A stretch of DNA of 46,324 nt from Bacilli bacterium (GTDB lineage Bacteria; Bacillota_I; Bacilli_A; RFN20; CAG-826). The translations under genes were made by a program, and so were the position numbers. How positions within the stretch are numbered: the stretch's first letter is position 1; the number at the start of each line of letters is the position of its first letter. Shown here one piece after another: positions 143-23,321 of this stretch. The stretch covers positions 1 through 46,324 of the forward strand of contig JAGAYY010000014.1 of assembly GCA_017940265.1 (NCBI GenBank). The letters are read 5' to 3'. The notes under the pieces are model-generated. The model made no database searches, was not told the DNA's origin, and saw nothing but the letters and a program-made list of their open reading frames with translations.

Positions 143-239
143 ATTACTTTTTTGATGTTTTTTATGCATAATTATTGTTTTTATTATGAAAAACAAATAA
201 CATTGTCATTGTGCGTTTATGACTAGAAAGGAACGTATT

Positions 240-3080
240 ATGAAAAAAACACTCATCAAATCAATACTTCTTGGTGCGATGACATTAGGTATGATGATCG
301 GTTGTAACGAACCTACATCTTCTACATCTAATCCAGTAACATCAAGTAGTACAACAAGTTCTACAGTCTCAAGTAGTTCTTCAGAAATTACATCAAGTAT
401 TACAACTTCTTCAAGCGACTCCTCTAGCAGTGCTTCAAGTAGTTTACCAAGTAGCTCATCTTCTAGTAGTTCAAGTTCTGTTGCCCCTACATTAACTGGT
501 ATTACATTAGATACCACGAATGTTAAGAAAACATACATTCAAGGTGAGGCATTAGATTTAACTGGCTTAGTGGTTACCGCTAAATATAGTGATAACACAA
601 CCGAAGCTGTTACTAACTACACCACTAACCCTGCAAATGGTGCGGCACTTAACAATACTGGCGCTATTCCAGTTACTGTTGCCTACGGAAGATTTACTGA
701 TTCATTTAATGTTATTGTTACCAAGGCTCCTAAAGCAGCGTGGACTGAAGAAGAAGCTAAGTTAATGTCTGATCACTTATATGGTGAAGTCTTACCATAT
801 ACAGGATTCGAAGCATCACAAGTTGTCTATAACGAACAATATAAAGCTGTTGTCATTATTGGTGGCACAATCACTGATGAAACATTAGAAAGCTACGCTA
901 GAGCATTATCTTTTAATGGTTATATCTTAGTAAGCACTACTGAATTAGTGTTTGAAAAGTCAGTTCAAACTGATGCTGGTAAGCGTATTGTTCAAGTTTC
1001 AATTATGGATAATAAAGGTCAATTAGCGATTGTCGCTATGGACCCATACTATTATGCTTTCCCAACTGATTTTGCTAACTATGTTGCGGATAAATACTTC
1101 ACTTCTAAGGATGCAGTTCCTGCTATCCAAGCTGATTATTATCAATTAATTGAAGGTAATGATGGTATTGCTATTGTTTGCTATATGGATGCCACTACTG
1201 ATGATGCTGGTTATAGTGATATCTTAACCACTGCTAATTGGACAGTTTTAGGAAAAGATGAACATGAATTATATAGTGCTGTTTCTCCAGATAGCGCTTA
1301 TATGATTTCTTATGAATATAGTGCACAAAACGGCGCCTTACTCATTGTCTTTAGACCAGTTAATTTCTTTAACGATGCCCCAATTAAAGCATTCTTTGCT
1401 AAATATAACGGTACATATGTTGAATTACCTGCTTTAAATATTCCTAACGGACAATACTATTTCGAAGAAGCTGACACCAATGAATACTTCTTTGAAAAAG
1501 GTGAAATTGATATGGTTGTAGCGTTCTTAACCATCTACGGTGGTGCCGCTGAAGATGCTAAAAACTATATGACCACCTTACAAGAAGCTGGTTTCAAAGT
1601 TTTAAATTCTAATGATTCATATTCCGCTACAAAAGCGGTTGAAGGTAAAGGTTTATTCAGATTAGATTATTCATATGATCCTGAAAAAGGAGTTATCACA
1701 TTAATTTTCTATATCTATTTAGAACCATTCCCAACCACAGAATTCCCACAAGATGAGATTTCCGAATTATTAGGTGGTTACACCACTGATATCGTTCCTG
1801 GTTATACTGGTGAAACAACTGGTTTCCAATTAAACGATGATTCATATGGTACATATATCGTTGTTCAAGTTGAGCAAGGTACAGAAGAAGAGGCAATCGC
1901 CTCATATACACAAACACTTCTTGAAAATGGTTATAGATTAGAAAACGAAGGTGGTTCTGTCTACGTTAGTGAACATCATGAAATCTTTGTGCAAATGTAT
2001 AAGGATTCTGGTTCATTTAAGATTGTTTTCTATCGCGCTCCATATTTATCATGGCCAAGTACACAAATTGCGGCCTATTTAGGTGAAGAAATCAATGACG
2101 TAGTTCCTGCTTTTGCGGATGCAGACGCTGATGAATTCACATTTGAACCAGATGATGATGGCTTATGGATTACCGTTGGTTATAACTATGAAGAAGATGA
2201 TCAAGGTGAAGAAATTGAATTCGATATGGAAGAAATTTCTAGTGCCTATATTGAAGAATTAGAAGATGCTGATTACACCGCGATTGAAGTTGAAGATACA
2301 ACATATTATGTTTCTAAGAACTTAGAAGTCGTTATTAGCATTGATTATGATGATATTTGGGATGAAATCTATATCTTCATCAACAGTGTTAGAGCTGTTA
2401 CAGCGGGTCAATGGCCAGCATATCATCTTACCTATTTCTTAAATGCTCATAACTATACAGATGAACTTCCAGTTTATGAAGGTGAATTCGTTAGTGCGGA
2501 TGCTAGAGTGACATTAAGCGCTTTAACAATTGATGTTGTTTTAGAAACAACTGATGCTGAAGAACTTAAAGCCGCGGCGGACACCTATATTGATACCTTA
2601 GAAGAAGCCGGTTTCACATATTTTGAAGAATTAGGTGAAGGTGCATGTAAGAGATATCTTTCTCCAAATGAAGAATACGAAGTCTCCGTGATGTATCAAC
2701 CAAATGGTTTCACTGTCCAAATTGATGAAATCGCTAATGAAAGACAAGAAACCACTACTTTCCCAACCGAAGCCTTATTCGCAGCGCACCCAGAATTAGA
2801 AGGTGTTCTTCCAGTTGTCGTTGAAGGTGAAGCTGCATTTGATACCCAAATCCAAAGTGACTGGGTTGAAATCTATGTTACATATGAAGATACTTCATTA
2901 ATCGCTGGTGCTATGGAAGCTTATAAAAAATCTTTAGAAGACGCTGGCTTAAGAGCACAAGAAGATACAGCCGGTTATGATGTTGTCTATTTCTCACCAG
3001 ATGGCACATACTATGTCTGTGTTACTGACTGGTCAGATTATGATCCAGCGGGATTCGATATTGAAATCTATTACTTATAA
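240..3080 (+). CDS. Large surface lipoprotein with Ig-like domain and seven tandem repeats
   Basis: A 946-residue predicted lipoprotein. The N-terminus is a lipoprotein signal with Cys22 in a M-I-G-C lipobox. Residues ~25-80 are almost entirely Ser/Thr, a typical spacer away from the membrane. Residues ~82-165 resemble a bacterial Ig-like group 3 domain (pattern ITLDT..VKKTY..GE.LDLTGL.V.A.YSD). The rest is seven diverged repeats starting near residues 168, 272, 380, 497, 605, 725 and 841. Each opens with a W/F-P-T-like turn and a short helix, then a V(L/V)P-x-Y/F motif and alternating beta strands ending in hydrophobic VxV/IxI patterns. The late part is very acidic. I start at ATG 240, seven bases after AAGGA (228-232), rather than at the in-frame ATG 21 bases upstream, because the signal peptide then begins MKK. 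It sits alone between terminators. The function is unknown; adhesion or ligand binding at the cell surface is an inference. Confidence 0.85.
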   Translation: MKKTLIKSILLGAMTLGMMIGCNEPTSSTSNPVTSSSTTSSTVSSSSSEITSSITTSSSDSSSSASSSLPSSSSSSSSSSVAPTLTGITLDTTNVKKTYIQGEALDLTGLVVTAKYSDNTTEAVTNYTTNPANGAALNNTGAIPVTVAYGRFTDSFNVIVTKAPKAAWTEEEAKLMSDHLYGEVLPYTGFEASQVVYNEQYKAVVIIGGTITDETLESYARALSFNGYILVSTTELVFEKSVQTDAGKRIVQVSIMDNKGQLAIVAMDPYYYAFPTDFANYVADKYFTSKDAVPAIQADYYQLIEGNDGIAIVCYMDATTDDAGYSDILTTANWTVLGKDEHELYSAVSPDSAYMISYEYSAQNGALLIVFRPVNFFNDAPIKAFFAKYNGTYVELPALNIPNGQYYFEEADTNEYFFEKGEIDMVVAFLTIYGGAAEDAKNYMTTLQEAGFKVLNSNDSYSATKAVEGKGLFRLDYSYDPEKGVITLIFYIYLEPFPTTEFPQDEISELLGGYTTDIVPGYTGETTGFQLNDDSYGTYIVVQVEQGTEEEAIASYTQTLLENGYRLENEGGSVYVSEHHEIFVQMYKDSGSFKIVFYRAPYLSWPSTQIAAYLGEEINDVVPAFADADADEFTFEPDDDGLWITVGYNYEEDDQGEEIEFDMEEISSAYIEELEDADYTAIEVEDTTYYVSKNLEVVISIDYDDIWDEIYIFINSVRAVTAGQWPAYHLTYFLNAHNYTDELPVYEGEFVSADARVTLSALTIDVVLETTDAEELKAAADTYIDTLEEAGFTYFEELGEGACKRYLSPNEEYEVSVMYQPNGFTVQIDEIANERQETTTFPTEALFAAHPELEGVLPVVVEGEAAFDTQIQSDWVEIYVTYEDTSLIAGAMEAYKKSLEDAGLRAQEDTAGYDVVYFSPDGTYYVCVTDWSDYDPAGFDIEIYYL

Positions 3081-5024: not shown

Positions 5025-6005
5025 TTATTCCCATTCAATTGTGGCGCATGGTTTATTACTTAAATCATATAATACACGATTTACGCCTTTAACTTCATTT
5101 AAAATTCTATCTCTTATTTTATTTAAAAGTGCATAAGGAATTTCTTCAATGGTCGCTGTAACGGCATCAACTGAGTTAATTGCACGGATGACAACTGGCC
5201 ATTCGAATGTTCTTTTGCCATCTTTAATACCAGTGGATTTTACTGGTGGAACGATGGTGAAGTATTGCCATACTTTTTGATCTAAACCTGCGTTAGCGAA
5301 TTCTTCTCTTAAGATAGCGTCGCTTTCTCTAACGGCTTCTAATCTATCTCTTGTAATCGCACCAACACAACGGACACCTAAACCTGGTCCTGGGAATGGT
5401 TGACGGTAGACCATATTACGTGGTAAGCCTAAGGCTTCACCAACTTGTCTAACTTCGTCTTTATATAATAATTTCACTGGTTCGACGAGTTCAAAACCGA
5501 GTTCCGCTGGTAAACCACCAACATTGTGGTGAGCTTTTAAACCTTTGGATTCTAAAATGTCAGGATAAATGGTGCCTTGTCCTAAGAAAGAAATACCATT
5601 AAGTTTTTGTGCTTCTCTTTTGAAGACATCAATGAAGATTTTACCAATGATTTTTCTCTTTTGTTCTGGATCTTCAACACCCGCTAAAGCATCTAAGAAT
5701 TCATCAACTGCGTCAACATAGATTAAGTTAGCGCCCATTTGTTCTTTAAATACTTTAATAACTTGTTCTGGTTCACCTTTTCTTAATAAACCATGATTAA
5801 CGTGAACACATGTTAAGTTGTTGCCGATTGCTTTGATTAATAAGGCTGCACAGACTGATGAATCAACACCACCTGAGAGGGCTAATAATACTTTCTTATC
5901 ACCCGCTTGTGCCTTAATTTCTTTAATTTGTTGTTCGATGAACGCATTCGCTAATTCCCTATTAGTGATACGTTGCATGTTTGGATCTCTGACATTTCCG
6001 CTCAT
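5025..6005 (-). CDS. guaA: GMP synthetase, ATP-pyrophosphatase and dimerisation domains only
   Basis: Amidates XMP to GMP with ATP. The protein has 326 residues instead of ~510, because the N-terminal class I glutamine amidotransferase domain is absent. What remains is complete: P-loop SGGVDS (44-49), GQGTIYPD (142-149), the XMP-binding RQPFPGPGLGVR (201-212) and the C-terminal KPCATIEWE. The start is secure: TAAGGAG lies just upstream of the ATG and the upstream gene stops 10 bases before. It therefore resembles the separate synthetase subunit (GuaAb) of archaea. It must use free ammonia or a glutaminase subunit encoded elsewhere; none is in this window. The operon neighbours, hpt and xpt, confirm the purine role. 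Confidence 0.92.
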   Translation of the reverse strand: MSGNVRDPNMQRITNRELANAFIEQQIKEIKAQAGDKKVLLALSGGVDSSVCAALLIKAIGNNLTCVHVNHGLLRKGEPEQVIKVFKEQMGANLIYVDAVDEFLDALAGVEDPEQKRKIIGKIFIDVFKREAQKLNGISFLGQGTIYPDILESKGLKAHHNVGGLPAELGFELVEPVKLLYKDEVRQVGEALGLPRNMVYRQPFPGPGLGVRCVGAITRDRLEAVRESDAILREEFANAGLDQKVWQYFTIVPPVKSTGIKDGKRTFEWPVVIRAINSVDAVTATIEEIPYALLNKIRDRILNEVKGVNRVLYDLSNKPCATIEWE

Positions 6006-6637: not shown

Positions 6638-6766
6638 ATGAAAAGTAAAAATAATAAGAAAAATAGAAAAAAGAGCAAAAGAGTTGGAGCCGCAAAAAAA
6701 GAGATGCTTGGTAAAGACATCTCTCTTGAACAACTGAATTCAATTAAGGTTGATAATTTCGATTAA
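6638..6766 (+). CDS. Possible 42-residue basic small protein
   Basis: An ATG-to-TAA frame of 42 codons. The first half is Lys/Asn/Arg-rich (M-K-S-K-N-N-K-K-N-R-K-K) and the second half looks like ordinary protein (EMLGKDISLEQLNSIKVDNFD). It points opposite to its neighbours and overlaps the end of the next minus-strand gene by four bases. TATAAA lies 22 bases upstream as a possible -10, but there is no Shine-Dalgarno sequence. A poly-lysine run is easy to obtain by chance in AT-rich DNA, so this is weak. If real, it could be a nucleic-acid-binding small protein. Confidence 0.3.
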   Translation: MKSKNNKKNRKKSKRVGAAKKEMLGKDISLEQLNSIKVDNFD

Positions 6767-7662
6767 TATAAACCTTCCTTATATTCACCTTTGTCCACTA
6801 AGGCTTTTAAGGCTTTAACAACACCTGGTTTGTCTTCTTTATAAGTAACACCGAACCACACTGATGGAGTGGATAATAAGCGCACAGTGGCCTTATTTTC
6901 GTGAACTAATTCATCAACGACTGTTGGAATTAAGAATTCTGATTTAGGAACGTTGATGTTTTCTTTTAACCAAAGTGGGAACTTTTCACCTAAAGCAGGA
7001 ATAAGATCTTTATTGAAGCAGAATAAGTTCATGGATACTAATTGGGATGGTTCTGTTTCAAAAGCTGGAGTACCATCTAATGGTTCACAAACAACTTTAT
7101 CGCCTTTAGCGTAGATACTTGATTCGATTAATTTTTCTAAATAGCCATTTTTATCTTGGAAGGCCACACCTCTTTTAACCGCACCATTTTCAGTCATAGT
7201 GTTCTTTGCTTCAAACGCTACAATAGCGTATTTACCTTTACTACCTTCTGGTAATGATTTGAGGTATTTATAAGCGACTTCATAAGTTTCTTTCCCATAG
7301 AAATCATCACCGTTGATAACGATGAAATCTTCCTTAATTAGGTCACGTGCCGCGTAAATTGCATGAGCGGTACCCCATGGCTTCTCTCTACCTTCTGGAC
7401 ATTTGAAACCTTCTGGAAGGTCATTTAAATCTTGGAAAGCATATTCCACTTTGATGATTTTTTCCGCTCTTTTACCGATAGTGTCTCTGAATGCTTCATA
7501 GAAATCTTTCTTGATAATGAAGACAACACTGCTGAAACCAGCACGTTTGGCATCATAGATGGAATAGTCTAATAAAAAATTGTTATAGTCATCCATTGGC
7601 TCCATTTGTTTTAGGCCACCAAAGCGACTACCCATGCCAGCGGCCATAATTACTAATTGCAT
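6763..7662 (-). CDS. Sugar-phosphate nucleotidyltransferase
   Basis: A 299-residue nucleotidyltransferase of the GT-A/NTP_transferase fold. It starts with the nucleotide-binding signature MAAGMGSRFGGLKQ (residues 6-19), has a GTAHAIYAAR segment, and a metal-binding VINGDDFYG motif. These enzymes join a sugar 1-phosphate (or similar) to NTP, giving a nucleotide sugar and pyrophosphate. The sequence is not close to classical GalU or RmlA, so I do not assign a substrate. It follows the glucokinase gene by 21 bases, which suggests use of a glucose-derived phosphate. The ATG is preceded by AAAGGAG. It is the last gene of its operon. Confidence 0.85.
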   Translation of the reverse strand: MQLVIMAAGMGSRFGGLKQMEPMDDYNNFLLDYSIYDAKRAGFSSVVFIIKKDFYEAFRDTIGKRAEKIIKVEYAFQDLNDLPEGFKCPEGREKPWGTAHAIYAARDLIKEDFIVINGDDFYGKETYEVAYKYLKSLPEGSKGKYAIVAFEAKNTMTENGAVKRGVAFQDKNGYLEKLIESSIYAKGDKVVCEPLDGTPAFETEPSQLVSMNLFCFNKDLIPALGEKFPLWLKENINVPKSEFLIPTVVDELVHENKATVRLLSTPSVWFGVTYKEDKPGVVKALKALVDKGEYKEGLY

Positions 7663-7683: not shown

Positions 7684-8628
7684 TTATTTGAAAAATAATG
7701 CTGCAGCACCAATCTTACCTGAATCATAGCCTAATTCAGCAGGTACAACTTTAACTTCTGGTGTGGCTTTATATCCATAAAAACGTTCTTCAATGTATTT
7801 GTTTAATGGATCAAAAAGCGGCGCGCCAGCATTAGCTATACCACCCGAAAGGACTACAACATTTGGTCTAAAGATGTTGCAGTAATTTAAGATACCTTCA
7901 CCAAGATACTTGATGTAGTTATTTAAAACTTCTTTAGCAGCCTTATCGCCTTTAGCGGAAGCTTCAAATACTACTTTGCCTCCCACTAATTCGATTTCAG
8001 GACTGATTTGCCACATTAATGAGCGTTTATTTAAACGCATGGCTTTTTTAGTTTCTCTAATAAGCGCAGTCGCAGAAGCATAAGCTTCCAAGCAGCCTTT
8101 TCTACCACATGAACATTGTTCGCCATCAACTTGAACAACAACATGGCCAAGTTCTCCGCCTTTACCTTCATTACCTTCATAAAGCTTGCCGTTAATGATA
8201 ATTCCACCACCAACGCCTGTGCCTAATGTGAGCATAATGACGGTTTCATATGCCTTGCCCGCGCCAAACTTCGCTTCGCCTAATGCAGCCGCGTTCGCGT
8301 CATTGGTTAAACGGACTGGATAAGGTAAGATTTCTTGCATAATATCTGCGACTGGTAATTCGTTCCAGCCTAAGTTATTCGCATAATTAACAATACCCTT
8401 TTCAACATCTAAAGTACCTGGAGAACCGATACCTATACCGGCTATTTTTCCTTCAAGATGTTCAGAGGCAATATAATCTTTGACTAGTTCAGCGAGTTGT
8501 CTAATGGTCTTTTCACCTGGTTCGCCTTTGACAAAAGGCATGGAAAATTTGTCATAAACACGACCGTTGCTATCAACTGCCGCACCTTTAATTGACATAC
8601 CACCAATATCAATGCCGATTGCAATCAT
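7684..8628 (-). CDS. glcK: ROK-family glucokinase
   Basis: Phosphorylates glucose (or a related hexose) with ATP in the cytoplasm. It has 314 residues, typical for GlcK of Gram-positives. Visible motifs are the phosphate-binding DIGG at 7-10, LTNDAN with the catalytic Asp at 107-112, LGTGVGGG at 135-142, ELGH at 159-162 and the zinc motif C-x-C-x4-C (C172, C174, C179) followed by LEAYAS. There is no N-terminal DNA-binding domain, so it is a kinase and not a ROK repressor. AAAGGAG lies before the ATG. It sits 11 bases after the small beta-repeat gene and 21 bases before the nucleotidyltransferase gene. Confidence 0.92.
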   Translation of the reverse strand: MIAIGIDIGGMSIKGAAVDSNGRVYDKFSMPFVKGEPGEKTIRQLAELVKDYIASEHLEGKIAGIGIGSPGTLDVEKGIVNYANNLGWNELPVADIMQEILPYPVRLTNDANAAALGEAKFGAGKAYETVIMLTLGTGVGGGIIINGKLYEGNEGKGGELGHVVVQVDGEQCSCGRKGCLEAYASATALIRETKKAMRLNKRSLMWQISPEIELVGGKVVFEASAKGDKAAKEVLNNYIKYLGEGILNYCNIFRPNVVVLSGGIANAGAPLFDPLNKYIEERFYGYKATPEVKVVPAELGYDSGKIGAAALFFK

Positions 8629-8639
8629 ATGGATCTCCT

Positions 8640-8885
8640 TTAGAACTTAATATCGTAGAATACGAAGTTGTTATCGTTATCGATATAACCAACTTCTTTA
8701 TCTTTGATGATGATGTAACCATCTTCATCGACATAACCGAGTTTCTTGGTACCAAAAGATATTTCACCATCTGGAGTAATATCCGCAAACTTTTGACGGT
8801 TGATGAAAATACCTTCACGGTCGATATATCCGACCATTCTTTCACCTACAAAAACGTTCTTACCAAAACTCTCGACAATTTGCAT
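8640..8885 (-). CDS. 81-residue protein of short beta repeats, function unknown
   Basis: A small protein made of ~16-20-residue beta-hairpin-like repeats: GYIDREG (19-25), TPDGEI (37-42), GYVDEDG (50-56) and GYIDNDN (66-72), each followed by hydrophobic strand residues. This resembles small beta-flower or WG-like folds, but I cannot assign a family with certainty. The ATG is one base after the GlmU stop codon, which suggests coupled translation. A longer in-frame start at 8948 would lie inside glmU and is unlikely. Because the preceding GlmU lacks most of its beta-helix, a role beside it is tempting but unproven. Confidence 0.7.
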   Translation of the reverse strand: MQIVESFGKNVFVGERMVGYIDREGIFINRQKFADITPDGEISFGTKKLGYVDEDGYIIIKDKEVGYIDNDNNFVFYDIKF

Positions 8886-8886
8886 A

Positions 8887-9903
8887 CTATTTACCGTGTT
8901 TTTCCACAAAAGGACCGACTTTTGCGGAGTTTTCGACCTTAACACCATCTAAATTGGAGGAGATAATTTCAGCTTCATTACCGACTTCAACATCATTAAG
9001 AATAGTATTTGGCCCAATGGAGCAAGCTTCACCAATTTTAGACTTACCTAAGATGGTTGTATTGCTACGAATAACTGTGTCTTGACCAATTTCAACATCT
9101 GGTGAAATATAAGCGGAATCAATATCTTCAATAGAAACACCAGAGAGCATCAATTTTTGGTTAATTCTTCTACGCATAATTTTAGCGGCATACGCTAATT
9201 GGACACGGTTATTAATGCTATAAACTTCTTTCATTTCTTCTGCCACGAAAACACCAACATGATAGTTATCTTGGATGAAGAGTTGGACTAATTCAGATAA
9301 GTAGAATAAGTGTCTATTATTATCAACCGATAATCTTTCAATGTATTTGAATAATAATTCGTTATCAATGATACAGATACCAGTGTTAACTTCGTTAATT
9401 TCATATTCAGCGAAAGTGCAGTCGCTTTCTTCTCTAATTGCTAAGATACGATTACTTTTATCTTCACGTAAGATACGACCATATCCTTTCGGATTTTCCA
9501 AAACAGCGGAAACAACAGTCATATCATATTTGTTCTTTTCGTGGATGTGATAGATTTGGCGTAATGTTTCAGTTTCTACGAGTGGTGTATCACCATAGAT
9601 AACTAATGTTTGACCAGGTTTACCTTCTAAGAATGGTTTTGCTTGTAAAACAGCGTGGCCTGTACCTAATAATCTCTTTTGCCAAACGACATCAGATTCT
9701 TTTTCCACTAATGATTTTGTCAATTCACCACCGAAACCAACTACAGTAACAATTTGTTGTGGATCTAATGGTTTAACCGCATCAATAACATAGTTAATGA
9801 TTGGTTTCCCTAAAATTGGATAAGAAACCTTTGAATGCTCTGGATCACGAGAATTCATTCCTGTTCCTTTACCAGCAGCTAATACGATTACATACTTGTT
9901 CAT
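8887..9903 (-). CDS. glmU: GlmU-like uridylyltransferase with truncated acetyltransferase half
   Basis: GlmU normally makes UDP-GlcNAc: the C-terminal half acetylates GlcN-1-P and the N-terminal half adds UMP. This protein has 338 residues against the usual ~455. The N-terminal domain keeps LGTGHAV, YGDTPLV, NPKGYGRI, EINEVNTG and the linker helix VNNRVQLAYA. It then has about three hexapeptide-type coils and stops at KVGPFVEKHGK, where full-length GlmU reads VGPFARLRPG, so the acetyl-transfer residues beyond are missing. The signature AAGKGTRM reads AAGKGTGM: residue 15 (codon 9861-9859) is Gly in place of the catalytic Arg, and the usual P-K is S-K. AATGGAGG precedes the ATG. It may be a GlmU relative with another substrate rather than true GlmU. 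Confidence 0.8.
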   Translation of the reverse strand: MNKYVIVLAAGKGTGMNSRDPEHSKVSYPILGKPIINYVIDAVKPLDPQQIVTVVGFGGELTKSLVEKESDVVWQKRLLGTGHAVLQAKPFLEGKPGQTLVIYGDTPLVETETLRQIYHIHEKNKYDMTVVSAVLENPKGYGRILREDKSNRILAIREESDCTFAEYEINEVNTGICIIDNELLFKYIERLSVDNNRHLFYLSELVQLFIQDNYHVGVFVAEEMKEVYSINNRVQLAYAAKIMRRRINQKLMLSGVSIEDIDSAYISPDVEIGQDTVIRSNTTILGKSKIGEACSIGPNTILNDVEVGNEAEIISSNLDGVKVENSAKVGPFVEKHGK

Positions 9904-9944: not shown

Positions 9945-10799
9945 TTATTTTAATACCTTGGCTAATTCAACCTGGTATTTGTTTTCTAGTTTTTTAAAGA
10001 CCTTCTTTAATAGTTTTTTATCTGTGCTTAAAGCAAAGACAGCAGATCCTGAACCTGACATTTGAACAATCTTAAGTCCTTCTGCTTTTAATTCGTCAAT
10101 AATTGCTTGGATAGCAGGCACTAAAGAAACAGCAGGAGCTTGTAAAGCATTAGAAATGCTATTTGCTAATAATTCATCATTGCCTTCTTCTAAAGCTTTG
10201 ATGACTGTATCAACATTACAAGAAGTTAAATCCATTGTATCTGCGACTGCATATACTTCTCTAGTGGAACAACCCGCTTCAGGTTTAACAATTAACACAT
10301 AGTAGTTATTTTTAATCTTGATTGGAGTGGTCTTTTCACCAATACCTTGGCATCTAGCGGGTTCACATTTCACAAAGAAAGGAATATCGCAGCCTAAGGA
10401 CTTACCAATTTCCATCAATTGTTCATCTGTCGCTCCTAAATTAAGTAACGTGTTCACTGCTTTCATTGTGCAAGCTGCATTAGAAGAGCCTCCACCTAAG
10501 CCCGCTTGGATAGGAATAACCTTATGAATAAGGATTCTAAATTTTTGATCAAACTTATAAATACTTTGGAGTTTATCAATTGAGAAAGTAGCTAAGTTAT
10601 AGGTGAATGAACCAATGGAAAAATCATCAACAGTAACAAAGTTATCTGGTGATTTATTTAACTTATCAATCACTAATGAGTCGTGTAAAGAGATAGGTAA
10701 CATTACCATGTCTAATTCATGGAATCCATCTTCACGCTTACCAGTAATATTTAAGCAAAGATTGATTTTCGCATAACTACGAACGTGTAAACTTTTCAT
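9945..10799 (-). CDS. ispE: 4-diphosphocytidyl-2-C-methyl-D-erythritol kinase
   Basis: A GHMP kinase that phosphorylates CDP-ME in the MEP (non-mevalonate) isoprenoid pathway. It has 284 residues, normal for IspE. The N-terminal SYAKINLCLNITGKREDGFHEL motif region (split across the start) and the ATP-binding PIQAGLGGGSSNAA loop are clear, and the C-terminal MSGSGSAVFAL motif is present. I start at ATG 10799; an in-frame TTG two codons upstream is possible but has no better ribosome site. It follows rsmA by 46 bases, a common partner in Firmicutes and other bacteria. Its presence shows that this organism probably makes isoprenoids through MEP. Confidence 0.93.
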   Translation of the reverse strand: MKSLHVRSYAKINLCLNITGKREDGFHELDMVMLPISLHDSLVIDKLNKSPDNFVTVDDFSIGSFTYNLATFSIDKLQSIYKFDQKFRILIHKVIPIQAGLGGGSSNAACTMKAVNTLLNLGATDEQLMEIGKSLGCDIPFFVKCEPARCQGIGEKTTPIKIKNNYYVLIVKPEAGCSTREVYAVADTMDLTSCNVDTVIKALEEGNDELLANSISNALQAPAVSLVPAIQAIIDELKAEGLKIVQMSGSGSAVFALSTDKKLLKKVFKKLENKYQVELAKVLK

Positions 10800-10845
10800 C
10801 TTCAATATAATCTTACTACTTAAAAAGTATTTTTAATAGGTGTAA

Positions 10846-14306: not shown

Positions 14307-14906
14307 TTATTCAACGTAGATAATTTGAACTTGTCTTTGTGCGCCTTCACCGATGGATTCAGTGCGAACGTTTGCCATATTATTTAAGGCATTATGAATC
14401 GCTCTTCTTTCATCTGCTGGCATTGGATCAAATGTGTAAGTTGTCTTTGTTCTTTGCACATCGTGGCCCAATCTTCTAGCCATACGCACTAAGCGAGAGT
14501 ATTTATTATCTTTATAGCCGTTGATGTCCAATAAGATTCTAAATCTCTTATGGAAGTGATTGCTGACTGCTAACTTAACTAATTCGTTAAGAGCTTGTAA
14601 TGTTTTACCATTTCTACCAATTAAGATTGGATTGTGTGTGGAATCAATGGTAATTCTGATGACTTGGTCATCTAATTTAGTGTTGACTGTGCTTTCGATT
14701 TCTAAGGCATCAACGACACCTAAGATGTAATCTTCCGCAAATCTAATGACGTCAGCTAAGTCATAGACTTCAACAATAATCTTTTTCGCAAATAAACCTT
14801 TTTTCTTATCAGAAACGATGTAAATAAGTTCATCAACTTCAACACCAGTTTCAGTGGAAGCAGCTTGTAAAGCTTCTTCAACGGTTTTCCCTGTATATTG
14901 TTTCAT
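14307..14906 (-). CDS. jag: KH/R3H RNA-binding protein Jag (KhpB/EloR)
   Basis: An RNA-binding regulator of cell elongation, usually paired with KhpA and found next to yidC. It has 199 residues. It has a Jag N-terminal domain (residues ~1-50, ending KKGLFAKK), a KH domain with the loop IGRNGKT, and a C-terminal R3H domain (R-R-A-I-H-x-x-L). It follows yidC by six bases, with AAAGGAAG upstream of its ATG. It is shorter in the linker than Bacillus homologues. Confidence 0.93.
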   Translation of the reverse strand: MKQYTGKTVEEALQAASTETGVEVDELIYIVSDKKKGLFAKKIIVEVYDLADVIRFAEDYILGVVDALEIESTVNTKLDDQVIRITIDSTHNPILIGRNGKTLQALNELVKLAVSNHFHKRFRILLDINGYKDNKYSRLVRMARRLGHDVQRTKTTYTFDPMPADERRAIHNALNNMANVRTESIGEGAQRQVQIIYVE

Positions 14907-14912
14907 ACAATA

Positions 14913-16439
14913 TTATCTTCCTTTCTTTTTGGCTCTATTAGCAGTGATTTTCTCAATAATTAAGGTTTGGACGATTGAGAATAAAGCACCGACGAACCAA
15001 TAAACACCCATAGCACTTGGTAATGTGAAGCCCATGAAGATAATCATGGCCATCATGATATAGGTGAACATTTTCATAGTACTTTGTTGTTGAGTTTGAG
15101 CTGGGTTTTTACCTAAAGTAGCAACCTTTTTACGTTTTGCTTTTTGGATCCATTGTGGAAGTAGCATAGAAACGACTTGTGCCGCTGCCATCAAGAGGAA
15201 CAAGATTAACGCTGCAACAGCGCTACCGTTACCCCAGTTCGCCGCATTGAATAACACGGTATTAATGGAATCAGAAAGATGCAAATTAAACAAGGCGTCA
15301 GAAGACAAACTGGCAGAGCCTTGTAAAGCACCCCAAACACAGATAAATACTGGGAATTGGACAACCATCACTAATAGTGAACTAAGAGGATTAATCTTAT
15401 TCTTCTTATATAGTTTCTGCATTTCCGCAGCCATTTGCTGTTTCTCGTAATTGTTTGTATTGGAATTTGGATACTTGTTTTGAATCTTTGTGATTTCTGG
15501 TTGTAATTGTTGCATCTTCGCATTAGCCGCTGTGGACTTAATAGTAACAGCAAGCATTAATGATCTGACGATAAATGTGATGAGGAAAATAGCGAGAAGC
15601 TGAGCTAAACCACCAGCTACACCACCATTTTTAAATGAGCTAACAAATGTTTCGACTAACCAGCCGATTGGATAAACTAATAAACCTTCAAAGAATGTGA
15701 ATTTACCATTAACATTCCAGGCATTGGCCCATGTTTTGGCTTCAATTTGAACTGGAACTTTATCGCTTGTGCGATATTTCGCACCATTGGCGTAACCATA
15801 GTAACCAAATTCTGCAGTACTAATAGATAAGCATGAACGATATGAGGAAATAATAGTGTTCAAGCCATTCTTATATAAAGTTAAATAGTCATTGGTTGGT
15901 AAATCATCTAATGTAATACCATTTGCAGGATCGCTGGTCATAGCCTTGAGGTCTTGATTCATCTTTGTCCAATTGTCCCAAAGTTTTTCGCCAGAGAACT
16001 TTTGATAACCAAATTGGTCTAGAGCCACAACAACATCACCAAATGTGATGGTTGAAGCATCATATGAAGCACCTTTATATAACTTTAAAGCGTTATCTAA
16101 AACATATTGGTCTACTTTTATAAAGTAATCATTACTTGGAGTTTGAAGACCTGCTTTAGTGGCTTCTGCGTTTGCTCTTCCAATACCACTAGCGTTATTT
16201 GTTGGTACGTTTACTGTGTAATAAACTTTTGTGTTACCTTCAAATACAGGCTTGGCACCTTCTGGAAGTTGGGCACCTTCTTGTTCGGCATCGTAATAAT
16301 CACTAACGCCGTAATCAAAAGCATAAAGGATATGAGCTTTATCAGTATCTGAACAAAATGAAGCGGTACAACTAGATAAAAGAAGCACACCAGCAAGAAC
16401 TGTCAATGCTCCTGTGAGTAGTTTTGTTCTTTTTTTCAT
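14913..16439 (-). CDS. yidC: Membrane protein insertase YidC with large extracytoplasmic domain
   Basis: Inserts membrane proteins with or without SecYEG. It has 508 residues, about twice the ~260-280 of usual Gram-positive YidC/SpoIIIJ. A lipoprotein signal ends at Cys24 (L-S-S-C). Residues ~25-245 form an extra extracytoplasmic region with no resemblance I recognise. The conserved core follows: hydrophobic segments with Arg292 in IVRSLML (the groove arginine), the charged hairpin MQQLQPEITKIQNKYP, and the later membrane segments ending MGVYWFVGALFSIVQ. The tail is basic. It sits between rnpA and jag as expected. AGGA lies eight bases before the ATG. Confidence 0.92.
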   Translation of the reverse strand: MKKRTKLLTGALTVLAGVLLLSSCTASFCSDTDKAHILYAFDYGVSDYYDAEQEGAQLPEGAKPVFEGNTKVYYTVNVPTNNASGIGRANAEATKAGLQTPSNDYFIKVDQYVLDNALKLYKGASYDASTITFGDVVVALDQFGYQKFSGEKLWDNWTKMNQDLKAMTSDPANGITLDDLPTNDYLTLYKNGLNTIISSYRSCLSISTAEFGYYGYANGAKYRTSDKVPVQIEAKTWANAWNVNGKFTFFEGLLVYPIGWLVETFVSSFKNGGVAGGLAQLLAIFLITFIVRSLMLAVTIKSTAANAKMQQLQPEITKIQNKYPNSNTNNYEKQQMAAEMQKLYKKNKINPLSSLLVMVVQFPVFICVWGALQGSASLSSDALFNLHLSDSINTVLFNAANWGNGSAVAALILFLLMAAAQVVSMLLPQWIQKAKRKKVATLGKNPAQTQQQSTMKMFTYIMMAMIIFMGFTLPSAMGVYWFVGALFSIVQTLIIEKITANRAKKKGR

Positions 16440-16454
16440 TTAATAAGTCCTATC

Positions 16455-16775
16455 TTAAAATTTTAATAATTCTTGCAATGATTGTTTGTTATCATCATAC
16501 GAACGATTAAGGAAATTTGCTTTAGCAATGATAACAATATCGAATGATTGAGAATTGTAGTCGATCAACGAATCACACATTGATCTAATTTGTCTTTTGA
16601 TGAGATTGCGAACAACAGCGTTACCTAACTTAGAAGAAACAGAAATGCCCACTCGTGTATATGTATATTCATTTGGGCGATAATGGATGACAAACGATTG
16701 GTTACGCTGCGCTCTGCCTTTTTTAATCGCTAGAGCAAAGTCATCACTTGCTTTAATACGATTAATAACTTTCAT
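16455..16775 (-). CDS. rnpA: Ribonuclease P protein component
   Basis: The protein subunit that helps RNase P RNA trim the 5' ends of tRNA precursors. It has 106 residues, normal size. The RNR-type signature is seen as KLGNAVVRNLIKRQIR, and the start INRIKASDDFALAIKKG is typical. The ATG is 14 bases after rpmH, with AGAGGAAAA as ribosome site. It is the second gene of the rpmH operon. Confidence 0.95.
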   Translation of the reverse strand: MKVINRIKASDDFALAIKKGRAQRNQSFVIHYRPNEYTYTRVGISVSSKLGNAVVRNLIKRQIRSMCDSLIDYNSQSFDIVIIAKANFLNRSYDDNKQSLQELLKF

Positions 16776-16789
16776 AATTTTCCTCTAAA

Positions 16790-16924
16790 TTAGTCAGCTA
16801 ATTTTTTTCTGCCCTTAGCTCTACGACGAGCAAGAACGTTACGACCAGTTGCGGATTTCATACGAGCACGGAATCCGGCTTTGTGTTGATGTTTAATTTT
16901 GCTTGGTTGATATGTTCTTTTCAT
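16790..16924 (-). CDS. rpmH: Ribosomal protein bL34
   Basis: A 44-residue large-subunit ribosomal protein. It starts [11 protein letters not shown] and has the basic [22 protein letters not shown] core typical of L34 (described in part). AGGAGG precedes the ATG. A promoter at 16955-16983 reads into it. It is the first gene of the minus-strand run that leaves oriC to the left. Confidence 0.97.
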
Positions 16925-16954
16925 AAAAGAAACCTCCTATTACATAGCGGTAAG

Positions 16955-16983
16955 AGTTTAACAACATTTATTAATAAATGCAA
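16955..16983 (-). promoter_or_regulatory. rpmH promoter containing a 16-bp perfect palindrome
   Basis: On the minus strand, TTGCAT (16983-16978) and TAAACT (16960-16955) are 17 bases apart, a good sigma-A-type pair ~30 bases before the rpmH ATG. The spacer is almost filled by CATTTATTAATAAATG (16965-16980), a perfect 16-bp palindrome that touches the -35. This placement would suit a dimeric repressor or an origin-bound protein. Confidence 0.65.
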
Positions 16984-17039
16984 ACAAAATAGGTTTTTTA
17001 CATATTTTTTATAAGAATAGTGGTGTTTATTTTTCTATA

Positions 17040-17170
17040 TTTCCACAAATCCACAGGCGGTTGAAAAGTGGAAAACTTATCCACAAAAATAAAGATGTGG
17101 AAATGTGGAAAACTCCCTTAAAGGTCAAAAGAAAACGACTTCAATGTGGAAAACTTAAAATTGTGGAAAT
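17040..17170. other. oriC part 1: DnaA box cluster upstream of dnaA
   Basis: A perfect DnaA box TTATCCACA is at 17077-17085. Near-matches in the opposite direction (TGTGGAAAW or AGTGGAAAA) lie at 17067-17075, 17096-17104, 17104-17112, 17145-17153 and 17162-17170. Related CCACA units occur at 17042-17055. The 305-base gap between rpmH and dnaA is otherwise AT-rich. The divergent gene orientation at this point also supports an origin. Confidence 0.85.
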
Positions 17171-17198
17171 CTTCATACAAAATAAATGTGAATTATTT

Positions 17199-17224
17199 TA
17201 TAATAGTTGACACGAAATAGGTGA
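17199..17224 (+). promoter_or_regulatory. dnaA -10 element and ribosome site
   Basis: TATAAT at 17199-17204 is a consensus -10; no good -35 is visible at the right distance. AGGTGA at 17219-17224 lies five bases before ATG 17230. The TGTGGAAAT box at 17162-17170 lies just upstream, so self-control by DnaA is plausible. Confidence 0.55.
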
Positions 17225-17229
17225 CCGTT

Positions 17230-18609
17230 ATGAATAATTCAGTATCAGAAATTGCCCGAATGTGGGAACAAACATTAAAAATCATTGATGAAAGACTACA
17301 AGAAAGGCAAATATTTGATACTTTCTTCGCTGATTCCTTCATCCATAGCTTTGAAGGCGACCAAGTTGTGGTCATGGTGAAGAACTTCACATCCCAAAGA
17401 TTGTTATCTTCTAAATATATAGATTTAGTAAAAGAAGCATTCTTCGATGTGACTGAAAGAAATTGTAATTTTAAATTCGTTCTCCCAGAAGATGTTGCTA
17501 AAAGCAACCCTTCTCAAGGAGTTATTAAAAAGACAAGTGAAGAACCAGTCTTCTTTAAAGATGCAGAATTAAAAAGTAATTTAACTTTTGATTCCTTCGT
17601 TGAAGGTGAATTTAATAATGAAGCTTACCGCGCTGCGACAGTGATCGCTAAAAACCCAGGTAAAGTTTTCAACCCATTATTCATCTATTCAAATTCTGGT
17701 TTAGGCAAAACTCACTTACTTCATTCCATTGGTAACTACATCAAAAACGTTAGTAAGCCAGGAGCGAAAGTTCTTTATATTGACGCGAATGACTTCGTTG
17801 AAGAATATGTAAAATTCGTCAAAGGTGAAAAGGAATCTGAAACGTTAAAAGACTTCTTCTCCACCGTTGATGTCCTCTTATTTGATGATGTCCAATTCCT
17901 CGAAAATAAGGTTAAAACAGAAGAGATGTTTTTCTACATCTATCAGAAGATGGTTAATAGCAATAAACAAATTGTCATCACATCTGATAGACAACCTAAC
18001 GAATTAAAAGGTTTAGAAGATCGTCTTATTACCAGATTCAGCCAGGGACTCACCGTAAAAATCAACAATCCAGACACAAATACATGTGTTAAGATTCTTG
18101 AAAAACAAATCAAAAACGAAGGCTTAAACGTTGATGATTTCGACCCAGCAGTTCTCTACTTCTACGCTGAAAAATTCAGTAGCAATGTTAGAGAGTTAGA
18201 TGGTGCATTTAATAGGTTAATTTTCTATGTCACTTCTATCAAGCAAGTTGAGAAGATTACACTCGATGTCGCGATTGAAGCTGTACAGAATATTACCGGT
18301 ATCAAAAACGTCGCCGCACAGTTGTCTGAACAAAAGATTATTAACGTTGTTGCAGACTACTACAATCTCGCTCCATCACAGTTAGTTGGCAAGGTGAGAA
18401 CAGGGCAAATTGCCTTAGCGCGACACATCGCTATGTATTTAATAAGAATTAATATAGACATTCCATTAACCAAAGTTGGTAACACTTTCGGAGGTCGTGA
18501 TCACACCACTGTGATGAACGGCATCGCTAAGGTGGAAAGTATGTTGAAAACTGACGAGTCATTAAAAGCGGTGATCAACACCTTACAAAAGAAGTTAAAG
18601 TCTAATTGA
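17230..18609 (+). CDS. dnaA: Chromosomal replication initiator DnaA
   Basis: Binds DnaA boxes and opens the origin. It has 459 residues. Domain I is at the N-terminus (ARMWEQTLKIIDERLQER). The AAA+ domain III has Walker A SGLGKTH (156-162) and Walker B with FDDVQ (218-222). Domain IV ends with the DNA-binding signature GGRDHTTVMNGIAKVE. I use ATG 17230 with AGGTGA five bases upstream, not GTG 17221, which lies within that ribosome site. Origin boxes flank the gene on both sides. Confidence 0.97.
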   Translation: MNNSVSEIARMWEQTLKIIDERLQERQIFDTFFADSFIHSFEGDQVVVMVKNFTSQRLLSSKYIDLVKEAFFDVTERNCNFKFVLPEDVAKSNPSQGVIKKTSEEPVFFKDAELKSNLTFDSFVEGEFNNEAYRAATVIAKNPGKVFNPLFIYSNSGLGKTHLLHSIGNYIKNVSKPGAKVLYIDANDFVEEYVKFVKGEKESETLKDFFSTVDVLLFDDVQFLENKVKTEEMFFYIYQKMVNSNKQIVITSDRQPNELKGLEDRLITRFSQGLTVKINNPDTNTCVKILEKQIKNEGLNVDDFDPAVLYFYAEKFSSNVRELDGAFNRLIFYVTSIKQVEKITLDVAIEAVQNITGIKNVAAQLSEQKIINVVADYYNLAPSQLVGKVRTGQIALARHIAMYLIRINIDIPLTKVGNTFGGRDHTTVMNGIAKVESMLKTDESLKAVINTLQKKLKSN

Positions 18610-18745
18610 TTTTATTAAAAATAAAAAATATCAATTTAAAGTGGACTGTGGTAAAATATTTCTAAAGTAGAATTCTTGAGTTATCCACAATATCCACCGA
18701 CTCAATAATTATTATTAATATAATAAATATATAAAAAAGGGAAAG
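18604..18745. other. oriC part 2: DnaA boxes and AT-rich unwinding region
   Basis: A perfect DnaA box TTATCCACA is at 18681-18689, followed at once by a near-box ATATCCACC. An almost pure A/T stretch (18701-18741) follows and is the likely duplex-unwinding element. At its left end AATTGAT (18604-18610) pairs with ATCAATT (18630-18636) around a second nested inverted repeat, overlapping the dnaA stop codon. The layout matches the bipartite Bacillus-type origin with unwinding between dnaA and dnaN. TATAAT at 18719-18724 may also serve as the dnaN -10. Confidence 0.75.
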
Positions 18746-18752
18746 AATAAGT

Positions 18753-19880
18753 ATGAGATTTACAATTAAGCGTGAAGAATTCCTTAAAGGTCTAAATATT
18801 GCTTCAAGAGCGATTTCCAGTAAGAACGCTAAAGCAGTTTTAGAAAATTTTAAATTAGAATTAAACGAAAAAGGTTTATTCATTACTGGTACTGATGAAA
18901 ACATTTCTATTAAAACTCAAGTTCCTTATAAGTTAGGTGAAGAAGATATTATCAGAAACTACAAAGAAGGTTCAGTTTTAATCAAAGCTAGACTCTTAGT
19001 GGAAATGATCAGAAAGATGGATACTGAAGAAATTACTTTAGATGTTATTGATTCTACAATTGCAACAATCAGTAATAGCAATAATCGTTCTGAATATAGC
19101 TTAAACTGCGTTAAGGTTGACGAATATCCAGATCTTGATTTAGATGCCACAGGTACAGAATTAACTCTTTCTAAAGCCGATTTTGATATCTTAGTTAGTC
19201 AAACAACATTTGCGGCATCTCTTAAAGAACAACGTCCTATTCTTACCGCTTTAAATCTCGAAGCTAATAACGGCATCTTAACCGCTACTGCAACAGACTC
19301 TGCTCGTATGGCTAGAAAGACATTAAGCATTCCTCTAGGTGTTGAATTTGTGGCTAATGTTCCTGCTAAGATGATGAACGAAGTTAACCACCTCTTAGAA
19401 GGCAAAGAATCAGTTACTATCGCTTTTAGCGATAAGAAAGCCTTATTCACCATCGGCACAACTGTTGTTGCTACTAGATTAATCGCTGGTGATTATCCAA
19501 ATACAAAGAATATCGTTCCAAAGGTTACTAACTACTTATTGGAAGTTAACGCTAACGATTTAATGAAGGCTATCGAAAGAGCTAACATCTTATCCATTGA
19601 TAGAGAAAACATTGTTGATTTATCCATGAGTGAAGATAGCATCGAGATCTCCGCTAAATCCAGCCAAGTTGGTTCTGCGGTTGAAAGAATTGATGTCTTC
19701 AAATACATTGGTCAAAACTTACACATCTCCTTCAATAGTGGATTCGTTATTGAAGCTGTTAAAGCTCTCGGAAGTGCGGATGTCACTCTTGCGTTTGTAG
19801 GCGAAATGAAGCCATTTGTTGTTGAAAACGCCTCAGATGACTCGGTCGTCCAAATCGTCACTCCAATCCGTACATATTAG
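18753..19880 (+). CDS. dnaN: DNA polymerase III beta sliding clamp
   Basis: Forms the ring that holds the replicative polymerase on DNA. It has 375 residues in three similar clamp domains, starting MRFTIKREEFLKGLNIASRA (in part). The C-terminal PIRTY replaces the usual PMRM-type ending. A purine-rich AAAAGGGAAAG precedes the ATG. It follows dnaA across the unwinding region and is closed by a terminator. Confidence 0.96.
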   Translation: MRFTIKREEFLKGLNIASRAISSKNAKAVLENFKLELNEKGLFITGTDENISIKTQVPYKLGEEDIIRNYKEGSVLIKARLLVEMIRKMDTEEITLDVIDSTIATISNSNNRSEYSLNCVKVDEYPDLDLDATGTELTLSKADFDILVSQTTFAASLKEQRPILTALNLEANNGILTATATDSARMARKTLSIPLGVEFVANVPAKMMNEVNHLLEGKESVTIAFSDKKALFTIGTTVVATRLIAGDYPNTKNIVPKVTNYLLEVNANDLMKAIERANILSIDRENIVDLSMSEDSIEISAKSSQVGSAVERIDVFKYIGQNLHISFNSGFVIEAVKALGSADVTLAFVGEMKPFVVENASDDSVVQIVTPIRTY

Positions 19881-19914
19881 GCCAAAAACACCTATTCTGA
19901 AGATATTACAAAAT

Positions 19915-19938
19915 AAGGGAATAATTTATTCCCTTTTT
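19915..19938 (+). terminator. Terminator after dnaN
   Basis: AAGGGAATA (19915-19923) pairs perfectly with TATTCCCTT (19927-19935) around a 3-base loop (5 bases if the last pair opens), then more Ts. It separates dnaA/dnaN from the yaaA-recF-gyrBA transcript. Confidence 0.85.
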
Positions 19939-19951
19939 AATTTATATAGTC

Positions 19952-19970
19952 TATAATAAACATACAGGAG
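19952..19970 (+). promoter_or_regulatory. Promoter -10 and ribosome site of yaaA-recF-gyrB-gyrA
   Basis: TATAAT at 19952-19957 is a consensus -10, just after the dnaN terminator; the -35 is unclear. AGGAG at 19966-19970 lies five bases before the GTG start of yaaA and decides that start. Confidence 0.6.
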
Positions 19971-19975
19971 TTTTT

Positions 19976-20194
19976 GTGGCCCAAAAAAGCATTAAATTAA
20001 AAGAAGGTGAAACCTTCATCACACTTGGTGTTTTGCTTAAACTCACAGGTATCATCGATACTGGTGGACAAGCAAAATATTTTCTTAGTGAAAACGCTGT
20101 TTTGGTAAACGGAGAGGAAGAAAATCGTCGTGGTCGTAAATTATACCATGGCGATGTCATTCAGGTCCGTAACATGTCCTTTTTAATCGATTAG
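19976..20194 (+). CDS. yaaA: S4-domain RNA-binding protein YaaA
   Basis: A 72-residue S4-like RNA-binding protein found between dnaN and recF in Firmicutes. The family is linked to ribosome assembly; the exact role is not settled. Visible is the S4 core: ITLGVLLKLTGIIDTGGQAK, then LVNGEEENRRGRKLYHGD. It starts at GTG 19976 (five bases after AGGAG). RecF begins two bases after its stop. Confidence 0.92.
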   Translation: MAQKSIKLKEGETFITLGVLLKLTGIIDTGGQAKYFLSENAVLVNGEEENRRGRKLYHGDVIQVRNMSFLID

Positions 20195-20196
20195 AC

Positions 20197-23321
<3,125 letters not shown>

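Follow-up and report, generated by a model that had tools for sequence, protein, structure and literature searches.

GlmU is a textbook bifunctional enzyme and a drug target. With respect to its two activities, a study of the Mycobacterium tuberculosis enzyme reports that uridyltransferase activity stays with the N-terminal part of GlmU and acetyltransferase activity with its C-terminal part (PMC4619583). An accessory uridyltransferase, GlmR (YvcK), is described in a second report as producing UDP-GlcNAc from GlcNAc-1-P and UTP (PMC10128056). Among the literature matches listed, taken as titles and the starts of abstracts with subscription papers and preprints outside the scope, we found no naturally split GlmU, no HTH-GlmM fusion and no stand-alone acetyltransferase of the type described below in Bacilli.

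Here, we describe a stretch of 46,324 nucleotides (the window; GCA_017940265.1, contig JAGAYY010000014.1) from a Bacilli genome (G000) that encodes a GlmU ending before its acetyltransferase half. On balance, we favor the reading that this protein is the uridylyltransferase half of a bifunctional GlmU, left at its ancestral locus, and that acetylation has passed to a stand-alone enzyme.

Results

A short GlmU directly behind ispE

The short glmU gene (positions 8887..9903, minus strand) encodes a protein of 338 residues that begins with MNKYVIVLAAGKGTGMNSRDPEHSKVSYPILG, ends with VGPFVEKHGK, and comprises the nucleotidyltransferase domain and the first coils of the beta-helix. The nucleotidyltransferase domain is homologous over its full length to that of bifunctional GlmU. 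Specifically, the two best NCBIfam GlmU models align to residues 5-333, the first over its positions 2-326 (of 447) and the second over 3-327 (of 452). Because the match ends at position 326-327 of profiles 447-452 positions long, the C-terminal acetyltransferase half, together with its catalytic residues, is missing, as the initial annotation had proposed; the same end point is common to all 13 genus rows. The scores of 335.7 and 303.3 bits fall under the curated cut-offs of 450 and 366.85. The best solved relatives are GlmU chains in the PDB (up to 239 bits), among them the 331-residue chain 1fwy, and an AlphaFold model built from a nine-row alignment was too poor to use (mean pLDDT 51.9).

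The immediate upstream neighbor, ispE (9945..10805, minus strand), marks the ancestral glmU locus, as it lies directly ahead of glmU in 70 of the 71 family orthologs read, short and full-length alike (these neighbor counts omit four divergent GlmUs of genus g6). Models for RmlA, GalU and GlgC reach at most 61 bits on the short GlmU, versus 336 for GlmU, and an assignment to any of these types of sugar nucleotidyltransferase was rejected. Taken together, the conserved position behind ispE and the higher scores of the GlmU models indicate that the protein does not belong to another sugar-nucleotide family. Of the two options first put forward for this gene, that of a distinct nucleotidyltransferase subfamily finds no support in these comparisons, and that of UDP-GlcNAc synthesis with the help of other enzymes gains a candidate acetyltransferase in the genus and the family.

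Matches to glmU were found in 13 of the 16 genus genomes searched, the three matchless genomes being 69-77% complete, and all 13 orthologs are 337-339 residues long. The gene is under purifying selection across the genus, with a median dN/dS of 0.063 over 34 genus pairs, compared with 0.094 for ispE and 0.096 for the nearby ROK gene (computed on 11 genus loci out of 13, with dS restricted to 0.15-2.5).

Downstream, glmU adjoins a small open reading frame of 81 residues with repeated G-Y-I/V-D motifs (8640..8885, minus strand), whose assignment as beta-flower-like is a sub-threshold Pfam match. This gene stands next to glmU on the same strand at 45 of 71 family loci (33/44 short, 12/27 full-length), or 48 of 71 if a match anywhere in the locus is counted, and in G033 (L080, 548 residues) the protein is fused to the C-terminus of a full-length GlmU. 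Its AlphaFold model is fair (87.9 from a single sequence, the five models ranging from 64 to 88), and it has no PDB match at E <= 0.001. The same gene run continues with a glucokinase-like sugar kinase of the ROK family (7684..8628, minus strand; below the NCBIfam cut-off).

Elsewhere in the window, the GMP synthase at 5025-6005 (minus strand, 326 residues) matched only the synthetase-type and GMP_synt_C domains, with no glutaminase domain, and is perhaps another split bifunctional enzyme. Positions ~14900-23300 form an origin-like region with yidC- and jag-like genes on one side and mnmE nearby (by eye), and with dnaN, a RecF/SMC-type ATPase and gyrB on the other (Pfam). A 953-residue open reading frame at 219-3080 (plus strand) has no Pfam match at 1e-5.

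Catalytic positions

A second feature of the genus concerns the signature arginine of the nucleotide-binding loop, a residue that we take to hold the triphosphate. Codon 15 (GGA; 9859..9861, minus strand) places Gly at the Arg of G-K-G-T-R-M, so that the signature G-x-G-T-R-M with Arg is absent from the genus and all 13 rows have Gly. The reading GKGTGM in place of GKGTRM was therefore correct. Of the 58 other family rows, a set without the four divergent GlmUs of g6, 55 have Arg and three have Lys at this position. The suggestion that Arg-bearing relatives might expose a sequencing error did not survive, since Gly15 and the short length are common to all 13 genus genomes with the gene, which excludes such an error for both features. 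The substitution is accompanied by a second genus-specific charge change at codon 77 (9673..9675, minus strand), which is Arg in 13/13 genus rows and Glu in 52 of the 58 others.

The 12 other scored catalytic positions are all kept in the 13 genus rows. These retained residues include Lys25, Gln75, Gly80-Thr81, Asp105, Glu158, Asn173 and Asn231, whose functional roles we presume from GlmU structures. Catalytic changes also occur in other short lineages, namely N231S in six of seven g23 rows and R15K together with N231S in all three g27 rows. All 27 full-length rows keep R15, K25, D105 and N231, while T81, Y141, G142, E158 or N173 vary in some of them. Given these changes in other short lineages and the constancy of R15, K25, D105 and N231 in full-length rows, the pyrophosphorylase half may drift in function once the acetyltransferase half is lost. 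Full activity is made less likely by the Gly in place of the signature Arg.

The initial annotation had also remarked on S-K in place of a later P-K. The reading itself is sound (the motif is HSKVSYP, not PKV), and the peculiarity is not: S-K is present in 26 of 27 full-length ortholog rows as well as 40 of 44 short ones, making it a family trait, with P-K retained in the four divergent GlmUs of genus g6.

Repeated truncation in a family that is probably wall-less

Twelve of the 13 named loci come from metagenome-assembled genomes (MAGs) named Erysipelotrichaceae, Erysipelotrichia, Bacillales or Bacilli at deposition, with rumen, reticulum or omasum in the titles of four; the thirteenth is a Lactococcus locus at 37% identity. 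The family is probably wall-less. A search for murA gave no match in 110 of 116 family genomes. All 14 controls gave one, 10 of them over the cut-off, and in the family only four genomes, all of genus g6, exceeded it.

Across the same 116 genomes, GlmU is short in 39 (249-358 residues), full-length in 45, represented only by a piece in two and absent from 30. Full length was established from sequence in 28 of the 45 genomes and from open-frame length in the other 17, and G034 (415 residues, with a disturbed C-terminal frame) was counted as full-length. A tree of 75 rows requires eight changes between short and full-length forms, and a single origin of the short form was rejected (p-AU 2.6e-8 in a one-clade test that warns of long branches). 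The acetyltransferase half has been lost more than once in the family; the exact number of truncations is unsure because 22 of the 72 inner branches are weak.

A candidate acetyltransferase behind HTH-GlmM

A search for GlmM brought up a long form in genomes with a short GlmU or none, in which the phosphosugar mutase is fused to an N-terminal DNA-binding domain, an Xre-type HTH (L107 7835-9475, L110 3704-5359 and L114 5198-6883, among others). Each of the 16 loci read with a complete HTH-glmM has, directly 3' of it, a gene for a beta-helix protein of ~223 residues, such as that at 6879-7547 in L114. This gene is followed by nagB at 13 of the 16; nagB lies divergently upstream in L124 and was not in the stretch at L115 and L166. 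In G019 and G101, the stand-alone protein has no HTH-GlmM beside it.

The stand-alone protein matches the C-terminal half of the Arch_glmU model (TIGR03992) with 136 bits; a score under the whole-protein cut-off of 292 is expected, as only half of the profile is matched. No NCBIfam model exceeded its cut-off. It also matches the C-terminal half of PDB 5z09/2ggo (77 bits), which we take to be Sulfolobus ST0452. An alignment of 15 copies has invariant segments such as E-x-RPGA, GNS-x-E-x-KN, PH-x-x-YVGDS and GAG-x-I-x-SNL. If H308, Y311, N331, K337 and K340 of the archaeal chain are the catalytic positions, as we assume, the first three are kept, and K337 and K340 are Asp and Val (one row aligned). 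This archaeal-type beta-helix protein probably performs the acetylation step otherwise catalyzed by GlmU. The separate GlcN-1-P acetyltransferase that had been sought thus has a strong candidate, beside GlmM in both genus and family.

Distribution of the stand-alone protein

Scored as present at E below 1e-40, the stand-alone protein occurs in 23 of 39 short-GlmU genomes, 0 of 45 full-length, 11 of 30 GlmU-less and 0 of 2 partial ones, presence sets that were compiled by hand from tables, some of which give only part of the matchless genomes. Short and full-length genomes differ with a Fisher value of 1.5e-10, a figure that ignores kinship. A kinship-aware test yielded four independent pairs on strongly supported branches, of which 1.6 on average ran in the same direction and none in the opposite one; with only four such pairs the test is without power, and after correction for kinship the association lacks significance. 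The protein is present in all 30 genomes scored as HTH-GlmM (by match and open-frame length; a whole HTH-GlmM was read in 19). The four remaining carriers have GlmM pieces (G009 and G117), a plain GlmM elsewhere (G101) or none (G019).

The 16 short-GlmU genomes lacking the stand-alone protein fall into two sets. Thirteen have no GlmM above background (best match <=114 bits, cut-off 447.55), and three, all of genus g6, encode an additional GlmU, divergent and full-length, within a glmS-glmM-glmU cluster. Viewed from GlmM, 77 of the 81 sampled genomes that contain it have either a full-length GlmU or the stand-alone protein; G059 and G069 have GlmM with only a piece of GlmU, and in G017 and G018 neither GlmU nor the stand-alone protein was found. 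GlmM was not found in four full-length-GlmU genomes (G093, G110, G111 and G118).

In a sample of the class, 11 of 159 genomes carry the stand-alone protein, eight of them outside the family, and none of these eight has an intact full-length GlmU. Three (G201, G208 and G227) have a short GlmU with its Arg intact and four have no GlmU, while G177 (L150 1054-2154) displays the reverse decay, its GlmU having lost the nucleotidyltransferase signature and kept the acetyltransferase half. Among seven non-carriers outside the family, GlmU is full-length in G204 and G125, short in G127 (224 residues from the first Met, without the stand-alone protein) and not clearly present in four.

The genome of the window

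Searches of G000 itself, an 88% complete MAG, found neither the stand-alone acetyltransferase nor GlmS, and nothing above background for GlmM. A second glmU was also sought in this assembly and none was found; two weak candidates, named by eye as IspD-like and serine-acetyltransferase-like proteins, were rejected. At the DNA level, an 8-kb region of G014 containing the operon and its neighbors matched nothing in G000 (40 of 96 first-look candidates scored), and the same region matched four of four genus-mates used as positive controls. Since the operon region and its flanking genes are missing together as one block, its absence suggests an assembly gap; two gaps would be needed, because glmS maps to another contig in G014. 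Among the genus genomes searched, GlmS is present in five of eight, GlmM over the cut-off in seven of eight and the stand-alone acetyltransferase in seven of eight.

Discussion

In terms of pathway, our observations are consistent with a route in which GlmS and HTH-GlmM would supply GlcN-1-P, the stand-alone acetyltransferase would convert it to GlcNAc-1-P, and the short GlmU would complete the synthesis of UDP-GlcNAc, with the NagB of the operon presumably draining surplus GlcN-6-P. Strong constraint on the gene and the retention of all other scored catalytic positions lead us to regard the Gly15 form of GlmU as still active, if perhaps with altered kinetics. Arg77 might conceivably compensate for the lost Arg15, although this is a guess.

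A competing explanation, which we consider possible and the less probable of the two, is that the Gly15 protein is no longer a UDP-GlcNAc pyrophosphorylase, that the UTP step has passed elsewhere, and that the short GlmU persists in some other function, whether on another sugar or nucleotide, structural or regulatory. The most likely recipient would be NT2, a second nucleotidyltransferase encoded in the window (6763..7662, minus strand) with an intact G-x-G-x-R signature. The 11 family genomes that have the stand-alone protein and no GlmU (an absence re-checked with a GlmU profile in nine of them) must rely on another enzyme for the UTP step, and NT2 is found in nine of these 11 and in 31 of all 34 genomes with the stand-alone acetyltransferase. 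Both in the window and in G086, NT2 lies three genes downstream of glmU, and in the g30 loci L017-L021 it starts ~840 nt past glmU. In G019 (L159 1-7037), the gene order is ksgA, ispE, the beta-flower gene, the ROK gene, nagA and a weakly ROK-like gene, with no glmU left between ispE and the beta-flower gene; NT2 follows there beside a kinase related to N-acetylhexosamine 1-kinases (best solved relatives, 284 bits). The catalytic changes in the g23 (N231S) and g27 (R15K) lineages, set against 27 full-length rows with R15, K25, D105 and N231 intact, point the same way. However, the 12 other scored positions are kept throughout the genus, and glmU is constrained no less strongly than ispE. NT2, moreover, occurs in four genomes with full-length GlmU (G032, G057, G077 and G118), its sole PDB match (3pnn) bears no functional name, and no kinase of the N-acetylhexosamine 1-kinase type lies around NT2 in the seven other GlmU-less genomes read.

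A broader version, which we hold to be doubtful, would see the entire hexosamine pathway rebuilt in these wall-less Bacilli, with HTH-GlmM as a DNA-binding regulator, the archaeal-type acetyltransferase taking over the second GlmU reaction and NT2 the first, and the Gly15 GlmU kept under strong selection for a non-canonical role.

It is also improbable that acetylation has simply become unnecessary in the genus, with UDP-GlcNAc made only from salvaged GlcNAc that a ROK or NahK-type kinase would convert to GlcNAc phosphate, leaving the acetyltransferase half dispensable. The ROK kinase gene does lie two genes downstream of glmU in the window, and where a short GlmU occurs without the stand-alone protein, no GlmM rises above background in 13 of 16 genomes. 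Salvage may be the only route in genera such as g9 and g27. Against this for the genus of the window stand its GlmS (5/8), GlmM (7/8) and stand-alone acetyltransferase (7/8), as well as the ROK gene near full-length GlmU in g14 and g17. Finally, a pseudogene or an assembly or sequencing error, for which only the odd features themselves and the 88% completeness of the MAG could speak, is most improbable given that those features are common to 13/13 genus rows and that the median dN/dS is 0.063.

Returning to the division of labor that we favor, between a short GlmU and a stand-alone acetyltransferase, the two activities of GlmU would have come apart repeatedly in nature, with an acetyltransferase-like protein tracking the loss of the second half. 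This gives the stand-alone protein a testable function and illustrates how the loss of peptidoglycan may be followed by a rewiring of UDP-GlcNAc synthesis. The change of Arg to Gly throughout the genus, under purifying selection, is likewise a test of how essential this arginine is, and the HTH-GlmM fusion suggests a direct coupling of amino-sugar flux to transcription.

With respect to known systems, the protein of the window shares with bifunctional GlmU (TIGR01173, PRK14354) an orthologous nucleotidyltransferase half, the ispE-glmU locus and all scored positions except Arg15, and differs in its missing acetyltransferase half, in the Gly at the signature Arg and in scores under the curated cut-offs. 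It resembles laboratory-truncated forms, namely the 331-residue PDB chain 1fwy, which we take to be E. coli GlmU, and GlmU-N of M. tuberculosis, in being cut near the start of the acetyltransferase half. GlmU-N is reported to retain uridyltransferase activity (PMC4619583). Unlike these constructs, which derive from bifunctional enzymes, the form in the window is natural, and its genus also lacks the Arg. By sequence, the C-terminal half of the archaeal-type dual enzyme (5z09, 2ggo; TIGR03992) is the closest solved relative of the stand-alone acetyltransferase; that enzyme carries both halves in one chain, whereas here the acetyltransferase has a gene of its own, downstream of HTH-glmM. Family models give no homology between GlmU and GlmR/YvcK. 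G243, in which no GlmU turned up, has the stand-alone acetyltransferase gene followed by a HAD-like gene (by eye) and then by yvcK/glmR (L140 1498-3646).
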